From: Spirochaetales bacterium
GTDB lineage: Bacteria > Spirochaetota > GWE2-31-10
Direction of reading: 5' to 3'
Assembly (NCBI GenBank): GCA_022508205.1
Contig: JAFLVQ010000004.1
Location: forward strand, 1-37,708
Length of the DNA: 37,708 nucleotides
Shown here: positions 34,892 to 37,708 of the stretch, one piece after another
How positions within the stretch are numbered: the stretch's first letter is position 1
Layout: each line of letters begins with the position of its first letter
Made by a program: the position numbers and the translations under genes
The notes under the pieces: generated by a model
Databases searched by the model: none
The model's input: the letters and a program-made list of their open reading frames with translations, nothing else
What the model was told of the DNA's origin: nothing

Positions 34892-34919
34892 AGTATAGTT
34901 CGGGTTCAGTGTGTTACAA
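34892..34919 (-). promoter_or_regulatory. Putative promoter of the GH13 lipoprotein gene
   Basis: On the minus strand TTGTAA (34914-34919) and TATACT (34892-34897) are 16 nt apart. The -35 lies inside the first repeat unit. The leader would be about 95 nt and ends with AAGGAG 10 nt before the ATG. Confidence 0.4.
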
Positions 34920-35272
34920 AGGGACAGACCTTGATTCCAAGTTGGTATACAGGCCTGACCCTTTTTGTGTCCGGCTTGTACGGATTCGGCGTGTTGCAAA
35001 GGGACAGACCTTGATTCCAAGTTGGTATACAGGTCTGACCCTTTTTGTGTCCGGCTTATACGGATTCGGCGTGCAACAGGGGGACAGGCCCTGATTCTAA
35101 TTTAGGATACAGGTCTGACCCTTTTTGTGTCCGGCTTATACGGATTCAGTGTGTTGCAAAGGGACAGGCCCTAATTCTAATTTAGGATACAGGTCTGACC
35201 CTTTTTGTGTCCGGCTTATACGGGTTCGGCGTGTTACAAGGGGACAGGCCCTGATTCTAATTTGGTATAGAA
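34898..35272 (+). repeat. 80-bp tandem array of terminator-like hairpins
   Basis: Left arms GGGACAGACC or GGGACAGGCC recur exactly every 80 nt at 34921, 35001, 35081, 35161 and 35241. The first four copies complete a 41-nt hairpin with right arm GGTCTGACCC (GGCCTG variant in copy 1) followed by TTTTT; copy 5 is cut off after the loop. Between hairpins is a conserved 39-nt spacer containing GTCCGGCTTATACGGATTC. Two loop types occur: CCAAGTTGG (copies 1, 2) and CTAATTTAG (copies 3, 4), a paired change that keeps an inner stem. The array resembles REP-type or MITE-type elements, and each unit could terminate plus-strand transcripts. Confidence 0.85.
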
Positions 35273-35419: not shown

Positions 35420-35794
35420 ATGACAAGGAAATTTTTGAATGTTTTGGCAGTGTTGAACATCGTGACAATGATGTTTTTAAGCGGATGTACTGCTGCGGGA
35501 GTGGAATGCGGTTTGATAGGTATATGGGAACGTTCCGATACTGTGATAACGACGGGGGGCTACAGCATGGAAATCATAACATCTTATGAATTCACAAACG
35601 ATGACAAAATGATATTTGAAGTGAATACGGTATACGGAAAAAGTGTGTCTGAATATACAATCAAATCCGTAAACAATCGTATGATAAAATGTAATGATGG
35701 CAGCGTAATTGAATATCGAAATTTAGGCTTCGATTCTGTCGAATTCGGAGATTCCGGCATTGGCACTTGGGCGGAATTCGCTAAAGTTTATTAA
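35420..35794 (+). CDS. Small lipoprotein, lipocalin-like/DUF5640-like
   Basis: The 124-residue protein has a signal peptide with lipobox LSG-C23 and a mature beta-rich domain of about 100 residues (GLIGIWERSDTV...SYEFTNDDKMIFEV...SEYTIKSVNNRMIKC). The G-x-W motif and strand pattern resemble small lipocalin-like bacterial lipoproteins; the exact family is not certain and no ligand can be proposed. GGAGGT lies 6 nt before the ATG, an almost ideal site. It stands alone, with a truncated hairpin copy upstream and a full copy downstream, and its promoter contains a 16-T tract. Confidence 0.75.
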   Translation: MTRKFLNVLAVLNIVTMMFLSGCTAAGVECGLIGIWERSDTVITTGGYSMEIITSYEFTNDDKMIFEVNTVYGKSVSEYTIKSVNNRMIKCNDGSVIEYRNLGFDSVEFGDSGIGTWAEFAKVY

Positions 35795-35834: not shown

Positions 35835-35882
35835 AAAAAGTGTCAGACCCTGATTCCAAGTTGGTATACAGGTCTGACACTT
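35835..35882. terminator. Lone copy of the array hairpin acting as a bidirectional terminator
   Basis: AAGTGTCAGACC (35838-35849) and GGTCTGACACTT (35871-35882) pair perfectly over 12 bp, with the same CCAAGTTGG loop as array copies 1 and 2. On the minus strand TTTTT follows, just after the cyclase stop at 35890; on the plus strand it lies 43 nt after the lipoprotein gene. Confidence 0.75.
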
Positions 35883-35889
35883 CTTGATA

Positions 35890-37708
35890 TTATTTAACTG
35901 TCATTTTGAAAACACCGTCCCAGTCTTGAGGCGGAGGATTCAGCCGGAAGTATTCTATTCGTTCCAAAAAAATGTATGACGTTTTGTCATTGTATTGATC
36001 GGTACACATTACAAAAAAATTCTCGGCTTCATTCCATTGTTGTTTTCTGTAATAGGCAAGTCCCTTTTCAAATTTTTCTTTAAATGCTATGGCTTTATTT
36101 GAGTATTTATTTTTTTTCTGTAAGATTTCGTAAATCCGCACGGGCTCTTCTTTTCCTTTTACTACTATAAAATCAAGCTCACGACATATAAATGCGTCGT
36201 TAAGGCGATTGTAAACTATTTCACTTATGATTGTTTTAGTCATGTAGATTTTATTTGCACTTTCAAGCCGTGCACCGAGATTTACTGCATCACCGATGGA
36301 AGTAAAATCCATTCTGGTTCTTGCACCGACAGAACCGAAAATAACTTTTCCGCTGTTGATTCCTATTCCCAAAGAAATTACTGGTTTGCCTTTTTTCAAA
36401 CGCTTTTTAGATTCCTGCTCCATAACTTTGCAAATCTGTATTGCTGCATTACAAGCATTCTGCTCTTTTCTTGGGCCTGAAAAAAATGCCATCATTTCAT
36501 CGCCGACGAATTTATCAATATCTCCATTGTTGTTTAAAATAATCTTTGTTTCCAAATCAAGGTAATAGTTCAAAATAGAAACGACATCCTTAGGATTCGA
36601 CTTCTCACACAATGCAGTAAAGTCGCGTATATCGGTAAATAAAAACGCCAAATCACGAACTTTGGTTTTTGTATTTTCAGAATTGCTTCCGGCATTTCGC
36701 AAAGTTGACACGGAAATATACGGAATAATTCCGCGAATTACGGAAACCATATTATCTATTTCATTTGACAAATCTTTAATCTCATCATTCGTTTCGATTG
36801 AATTTGTGAATATAAGATTTTCCGGAGTAATGTTTGCGTTTTTGCTTGTGAGCATTCTCGATAATAATATAGACATATTGCGTACATTCGTTCGCAGAAT
36901 CAACAGCGGCGTTATCATGTAGTTGGCAACTAAAAATATCAATAGAATCGAAATATGCAGGAATATTATCAGCAAAGTAAGTGTGGTAATTACGGTTTGA
37001 ATATACGGACTTGAAAGAATGTCTTTGTTGAAAGTAACAACCGAAAATCCGACAAAGCGATTTTTCCCGTTTTCTTCGGGTATTGTTATCGGCCAAATAT
37101 ATTTGGTTATATCCTTATTATTTTCATCATTTAATACCGGGTTGCGGGAATTTAAAATATAATGGTTATAATATTTTCTGGCTTTTTCGGGTGATATAAC
37201 CATTTCTCTTTTATCTTTGATCGAGGAAATATCCTCGGTCGAATGAGTTAGCGGATATGCCGGAAAAACCGTGGTATTGGAAATATCTTCCATATAAATA
37301 ACGGATGATTTCTCATGAAAAATATCGATTCTATTAAATGGGAAATTGGTTTTTTCATTAGCTACTTTTCTGAAAGCGAAAAATGAATGAATAAGCCTAT
37401 CATTTCCTTCGGTAGTATAAAAAATATTGGCTGTCTGTGCTGCATGTGTACGTCCCGCATCATTGATGGATATTGACAGCAGATGACGATAACGATACAA
37501 AATTCCGAATACCAAAGAAAATAAAACGGATAGCATTATGCATAAAAACGAAATAAGTACTTTCGTGCGCAAAGATATATAGCGGTTGGAGGAGTATTTG
37601 TTTTTGGATTTATTTCGAGCTGCCGGTACATTATTATATTCTGGATTATTGGAATATTCTGGATTATTGGAATATTCTGGATTATTGGAATATTCTGGAT
37701 TATTGGAA
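35890..37708 (-). CDS. Membrane adenylate cyclase (class III), partial at the right edge
   Basis: The frame stays open to the window edge (605 residues visible). A TTG at 37572 is not a likely start: it has no ribosome site and coding continues upstream. Order: four SNNPEY repeats, a basic stretch, membrane helix 1, an extracytoplasmic sensor region of about 160 residues, helix 2, a HAMP-like linker, the cyclase domain and a short TPR-like tail ending in PPPQDWDGVF. Metal-binding Asp in LFTDIRDF and VGDEMMAFF, Lys in IDKFVGD and Asp in MDFTSIGD (adenine choice), and Asn/Arg in NLGARLE are all present, so it should make cAMP in response to an external signal. Confidence 0.9.
   Translation of the reverse strand, partial: SNNPEYSNNPEYSNNPEYSNNPEYNNVPAARNKSKNKYSSNRYISLRTKVLISFLCIMLSVLFSLVFGILYRYRHLLSISINDAGRTHAAQTANIFYTTEGNDRLIHSFFAFRKVANEKTNFPFNRIDIFHEKSSVIYMEDISNTTVFPAYPLTHSTEDISSIKDKREMVISPEKARKYYNHYILNSRNPVLNDENNKDITKYIWPITIPEENGKNRFVGFSVVTFNKDILSSPYIQTVITTLTLLIIFLHISILLIFLVANYMITPLLILRTNVRNMSILLSRMLTSKNANITPENLIFTNSIETNDEIKDLSNEIDNMVSVIRGIIPYISVSTLRNAGSNSENTKTKVRDLAFLFTDIRDFTALCEKSNPKDVVSILNYYLDLETKIILNNNGDIDKFVGDEMMAFFSGPRKEQNACNAAIQICKVMEQESKKRLKKGKPVISLGIGINSGKVIFGSVGARTRMDFTSIGDAVNLGARLESANKIYMTKTIISEIVYNRLNDAFICRELDFIVVKGKEEPVRIYEILQKKNKYSNKAIAFKEKFEKGLAYYRKQQWNEAENFFVMCTDQYNDKTSYIFLERIEYFRLNPPPQDWDGVFKMTVK
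37637..37708 (-). repeat. 18-bp in-frame tandem repeat, at least four units
   Basis: TATTCTGGATTATTGGAA (plus strand) occurs four times without mismatch and continues to the window edge. It is a whole number of codons and encodes SNNPEY in the cyclase frame, so copy number changes would alter only tail length. Confidence 0.9.

Follow-up and report, generated by a model that had tools for sequence, protein, structure and literature searches.

Tandem and dispersed hairpins in a Spirochaetales genome as probable recognition sites of a RAYT-type transposase

It is still an open question how REP-like repeats become dispersed and whether they are really mobilised by RAYTs, and most REP work concerns proteobacterial GTAG REPs and single-copy RAYTs. 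In E. coli, TnpAREP needs a bulge in the stem, and restoration of a regular stem abolishes REP activity (PMC8266576). In Di Nocera et al. 2013 (PMC3733652), RAYT-like genes lie between long TIRs that have no relation to GTAG REPs, the motif GGGGWSAS is present in some (but not all) of the described TIRs, and TIRtron/TIRYT repeats are dispersed as singles, dimers, and clusters. According to the same paper, CGTC-tagged repeats occur in Spirochaetes and are said to be without a dedicated transposase. The system in the two congeneric spirochaetes described here lacks GTAG; it includes multi-copy RAYT elements whose ends are clean, arm types that are cognate to the RAYTs, and a tandem array.

The window (the whole stretch of DNA analysed, contig C142; 37,708 nucleotides) belongs to a gut Spirochaetales MAG of 2.23 Mb (207 contigs; 86% complete). 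Five left arms spaced by 80 nt, with four complete hairpins and a T-run after each, had been noticed in the original prediction, and this was confirmed: the hairpin cores were located at 34921, 35001, 35081, and 35161 with an exact spacing of 80 nt, CCCTTTTTG was found 3' of every complete array hairpin, and a fifth left half (35241-35269) had the last letters ...GGTATA. TRF gave a period of 80, 4.5 copies, 89% match, and 0 indels over 34911-35269. The features were as follows (CM, covariance model):

34911..35269, + strand: 80-bp tandem array, 4.5 units, ~39-nt spacers (TRF)
34921..34961, + strand: hairpin copy 1, 41-nt core (CM R1 60.1 bits; sequence)
35001..35041, + strand: hairpin copy 2 (CM R1 62.2 bits; ssDNA fold z -5.0)
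35081..35121, + strand: hairpin copy 3 (CM R1 61.9 bits)
35161..35201, + strand: hairpin copy 4 (CM R1 63.6 bits)
35241..35269, + strand: half copy 5, left arm and central palindrome (sequence; BLAST 48 nt at 85%)
35840..35880, + strand: lone hairpin, GTG/CAC arms (CM R1 56.2 bits; ssDNA fold z -5.1)

The loop centre was CCAAGTTGG in array copies 1 and 2 and the lone copy at 35840, and CTAATTTAG in copies 3-4, both of which had been given correctly, and was CTAATTTGG in the half copy. The change of the outer stem from GGG/CCC (array) to GTG/CAC (lone copy) was also correct as stated; a further difference, absent from the original prediction, was that the outer stem of the array hairpins (GGGACAG/CTGACCC) contained an A.A mismatch where the lone copy had a T-A pair. 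When ssDNA folding was compared with that of shuffles, array copies 1 and 2 and the lone copy were much better (z values of -3.2, -5.0, and -5.1, respectively), and array copies 3 and 4 were weaker (-1.5 and -2.7, respectively). The array was located between two divergent genes, and the lone copy between convergent genes ending at 35794 (+) and 35890 (-). The array units were in direct orientation, not the alternating inverted REPs of a BIME, and the ~39-nt spacer was locus-specific, with no match outside its own locus in a genome search. At the right edge of the window (37636-37708), an 18-bp unit (ATATTCTGGATTATTGGA) was also found to be perfectly repeated in tandem, with 4.1 copies.

A genome-wide search for the hairpin, proposed together with the original prediction, revealed a dispersed and mostly intergenic family. 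BLAST with the 80-bp unit gave 82 matches in the genome, and only the hairpin part matched away from the array locus. A CM of 49 distinct 41-nt copies without gaps gave 148 two-strand matches in the own genome, and ~108 separate hairpin places were counted in the examined stretches of the MAG, from which a permissive half-site scan (mostly noise) was left out. Only 11 of the 108 places were inside ORFs of at least 100 aa and 97 were outside, against 77% of random positions inside there; GTAG REPs likewise have many dispersed intergenic copies. Since many copies were located at contig ends, the true numbers are probably higher, and some arrays may have collapsed. Further tandem arrays had a spacing of ~90 nt (e.g., contigs C179 and C70), and doublets ~62 nt apart with a common spacer, CGATTAGCTTTGCTTTAAAT, recurred at several own-genome loci. 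No GTAG or GTGG tetranucleotide was conserved 5' of the palindrome, and the flanks of the copies varied. In a CM search of 59 relatives, only a congener (G001; Spirochaetales RGIG8597, a water-deer caecum MAG) was rich, with 41 matches (~50 hairpin places), and three of the other 58 had 1-3 weak matches each; among the genomes searched, the family was nearly genus-restricted. Two other repeats were observed in the own genome: a near-perfect palindrome subfamily (GGGACAGACCCTAATACCAAAATAGGATTAGGGTCTGTCCC; L145, L164, L166, and L168), unlike the asymmetric array copies and in some cases bordered by TTATA/TTAAT, and a 30-bp tandem repeat containing an N run, AACACAGACAACAATGCCGGTACTGGTAGT, on contig C143 (L154, 400-630).

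No Y1/RAYT enzyme was encoded within the window, as had been noted, and one PF01797 (Y1/HUH) RAYT-like gene was found elsewhere in the same MAG (contig C143; 149 aa; 51 bits, over the cut-off). THFH/THIH and Y were conserved in A2. The best NCBIfam model of this protein was REP_Tyr_transpos (71 bits; 83 and 72 for the congener proteins), with two of the three RAYTs just below the curated cut-off of 80 bits and the score far above that of the IS200 model. A profile of the three RAYTs matched the E. coli TnpArep structure 4er8 (E=3e-5), and together these matches identified a Y1/HUH catalytic domain of the RAYT type. The hairpin arms GGTCTGACCCC and GGTCTGACTC were located upstream of the own-genome RAYT gene; downstream of it, no hairpin arm was found. 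Of 105 own-genome copies, 39 carried the motif GGGGWCAG, which fits GGGGWSAS. The motif also occurred upstream of the own-genome RAYT gene, and in other genomes of the phylum it was enriched in the vicinity of RAYTs (14 in 24 kb vs 5 in 54 kb, p=1.6e-4).

In a contig scan of the genomes, the close relatives of the RAYTs belonged mainly to the congener, which had 14 RAYT matches. Its type A copies were ~92% identical in the coding region, and every preserved right end consisted of GACGACAGRCC, 3 nt, and a 15-nt ATNC-N7-GNAT directly after the stop codon (one end deviated at one position of the latter pattern), beyond which the DNA was unrelated between copies; left ends matched right ends, reading outward likewise. 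Type B elements were delimited by TGCCCAGA... and ...TCTGGGCA, and terminated in a full hairpin. In the examined elements of types A and B, no second (tnpB-like) gene was found. The same hairpin units therefore capped RAYT genes where ends were preserved, on both sides in the congener where both ends were preserved, and on the upstream side only in the own genome, so that the expected flanking of a RAYT by copies was borne out in full only in the former. Since ACGA arms occurred with type A, TGCC with type B, and GGGT with the own-genome RAYT, arm type followed RAYT type. The original REP/RAYT-like reading was right in kind. Literature searches for a paper on RAYTs in spirochaetes and for GTCAGACC with a transposase gave none and nothing relevant, respectively.

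Half copy 5 broke off approximately where the congener RAYT elements have their right ends. A hairpin formed as a right-end/left-end junction of the 80-bp unit fits a half copy ending in GGTATA, and is not claimed here because a complete hairpin closes the type B elements. At the left side of L112 and at ~2829 of L095 (G001), half hairpins ran on, at the same point, into a second palindrome (GTATTTAACTRCGTTAAATAC), which is a different repeat. Elsewhere in the phylum, a RAYT-like gene lay between two direct copies of AACAGACCTGAAGGTCTGTTGCTACATTTGTTATATGGTAAAGG at 1342 and 1927 (L080; G031), and a RAYT gene in a different family had GGGGTCAGACCCC palindromes upstream and GGGTCTGACCCC downstream with the same core (L072; G043; positions 1383, 1418, and 2127).

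Most likely, an ssDNA transposase of the RAYT type (Y1, HUH) recognises the hairpins as REP/TIR-like sites, which would have spread through the genome as non-autonomous elements; a genus-level RAYT hairpin family is itself well supported. Points against this explanation are the upstream-only arms of the own-genome RAYT, the lack of a conserved GTAG head, and the two NCBIfam scores just below the curated cut-off. We infer the mobility of the hairpins, including binding, cleavage, movement, and the route to the 80-bp array, along the following lines. The outer arms would fold on a single-stranded (e.g., lagging-strand) template, and the RAYT would bind the folded arm and the imperfect ATNC-N7-GNAT palindrome, cut near the palindrome edge, and join copies. 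The array would represent local tandem amplification of one hairpin and its flanking DNA via RAYT strand transfer or replication slippage at the hairpins, and amplification could be purely by slippage. Transcription termination by T-tailed copies would be incidental.

The own-genome RAYT is a single copy without a downstream end, and the array spacers are locus-specific, as would be the case if the array arose by simple slippage of an old hairpin and the family were a relic without a mobilising enzyme in its own species. This explanation is rather unlikely, because the congener RAYTs are multi-copy and ~92% identical with clean ends, which argues for past activity there, and because composite doublets with the same spacer are found at several own-genome loci. 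A role as intrinsic terminators, bidirectional terminators, or mRNA 3' stabilisers agrees with the CCCTTTTTG ends of the array hairpins, the position of the lone copy between convergent genes, and the avoidance of ORFs. However, TTTT was found within 10 nt on either side in just 20 of the 108 places (random DNA, ~10% per side), indicating that the T-run is no conserved part; a terminator scan called no full array hairpin, the array lies between divergent genes, and the capping of transposase genes by type-specific arms is not a property of terminators. We regard such a role as improbable.

The paired substitutions in the loop stem had originally been taken as a sign of selection for folding, and this was not upheld by the pairing of the copies. 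In the 49 distinct copies, whole-structure pairing was 86.4%, compared with 86.4% in shuffles, and 20 double changes were observed, compared with 21.7. The loop pair flagged earlier was C-G 15, C-A 14, T-G 11, and T-A 7 times. In larger sets, the inner six pairs were below shuffles (79.9% vs 82.4%, z -3.7); since the shuffle tests ignore the relatedness of the hairpin copies, this small deficit could be caused by relatedness, and the safe statement is that there was no evidence of compensatory change in the inner stem. On the other hand, the outer five pairs covaried: 78.9% vs 75.9% (shuffled) in the own genome (G000), 67.7% vs 45.5% in the congener, and 75.4% vs 62.4% (z 11.1) in both. Variation without kept pairing, which had been named as evidence against selection for the folded form, was thus found in the inner stem but not in the outer arms, and only for the latter did the compensatory argument stand. 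The pairs were GGGA/TCCC, GTGT/ACAC, TGCC/GGCA, GTGA/TCAC, and ACGA/TCGT, and covariation was seen chiefly from one arm type to another and from one species to the other; the signal comes from few arm types and so corresponds to few independent events, not 152, with relatedness again disregarded by the shuffles. The lack of covariation in the inner stem agrees with the loss of E. coli REP activity on a regular stem (PMC8266576).

A structured regulatory RNA (tandem riboswitch-like or sRNA) under RNA-structure selection would account for the stable fold, tandem copies, and outer-arm covariation, but appears very improbable from the 0 matches in an Rfam covariance-model search, inner-stem pairing at or below the shuffle level, and the association of the hairpins with RAYT ends. 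A reading of the array as integron attC sites on which an integron integrase acts, to which imperfect palindromes in tandem and the occurrence of integrons in spirochaetes would point, is largely refuted and has next to no probability, because no integron integrase was over the cut-off in the 86%-complete MAG (best 80 bits vs a cut-off of 265), all 14 control genomes likewise gave integrase matches, and there were no gene cassettes between array copies.

The centre of the recognition site proposed for the RAYT was hypervariable. Among eight type A ends, the mean pairwise difference was 48% for the 11 letters at the centre but 2% for the 12-nt arm, compared with 8% in the coding region of type A elements, 18% at third codon positions, and 9.5% in upstream non-coding DNA (four copies). 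All other parts of the element, even the third codon positions, diverged far less than the centre (L112-L121 right ends), of which only the pattern ATNC-N7-GNAT was retained. A target-site duplication of the 15-mer was rejected because the two end palindromes differed in L112 and L115, in which both ends were readable; there is thus no simple target duplication. Possible causes of the hypervariability are capture of the target, exchange between copies, and rapid mutation. Tentatively, and as a possibility that we consider doubtful, the imperfect 15-nt palindrome ATNC-N7-GNAT, present at the element ends and in all hairpins, might be acquired at insertion (as the target site in the host or through a swap with a different hairpin) and not be stably inherited, which would explain the divergence of the loop relative to the arm and coding region, as well as the lack of inner-stem covariation. 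If true, the hairpins would be element-target hybrids, and the RAYT would recognise the folded outer arm and a palindromic pattern with largely free letters. Since one centre is common to array copies 1 and 2 and the lone copy, the centre travels with local copies, and capture at each event is not a full explanation. A covarying outer arm against a hypervariable centre makes the recognition rule and cleavage point directly testable.

Among the known systems, IS200/IS605 (IS608) elements share with the spirochaete family a Y1 HUH transposase, hairpins at the ends, and a presumed ssDNA substrate, but differ in the protein, which is of the RAYT type here (REP_Tyr_transpos outscores the IS200 model), and in that the type A and B elements examined carry no tnpB-like gene. 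Tandem grouping of repeats and conserved linkers are also seen in BIMEs and REPINs; however, the spirochaete units are direct rather than inverted REP pairs, and their linker is locus-specific. The likeness to GTAG REPs and REPtrons includes short imperfect palindromes in many intergenic copies, a RAYT gene near the same repeats with family-specific cognate pairing (PMC2817692; PMC8266576), and an imperfect stem, whereas the spirochaete hairpins have no GTAG/GTGG head, the congener RAYT is multi-copy, and the element ends are defined by the repeat itself. Type A arms read ..TGTCGTC, a possible resemblance to the CGTC-tagged Spirochaetes repeats of PMC3733652. By the description in that paper, the closest known kind is TIRtron/TIRYT rather than GTAG REPs: in both cases, a RAYT-like gene is bounded by repeats unrelated to GTAG REPs, the motif GGGGWSAS occurs, and singles, dimers, and clusters are found. 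The spirochaete family differs from TIRtrons, as described there, in its host, the switching of outer-arm letters with RAYT type, and the hypervariable central palindrome and 80-bp direct tandem array. Its novelty is that of a new branch of an already known kind of bacterial repeat.
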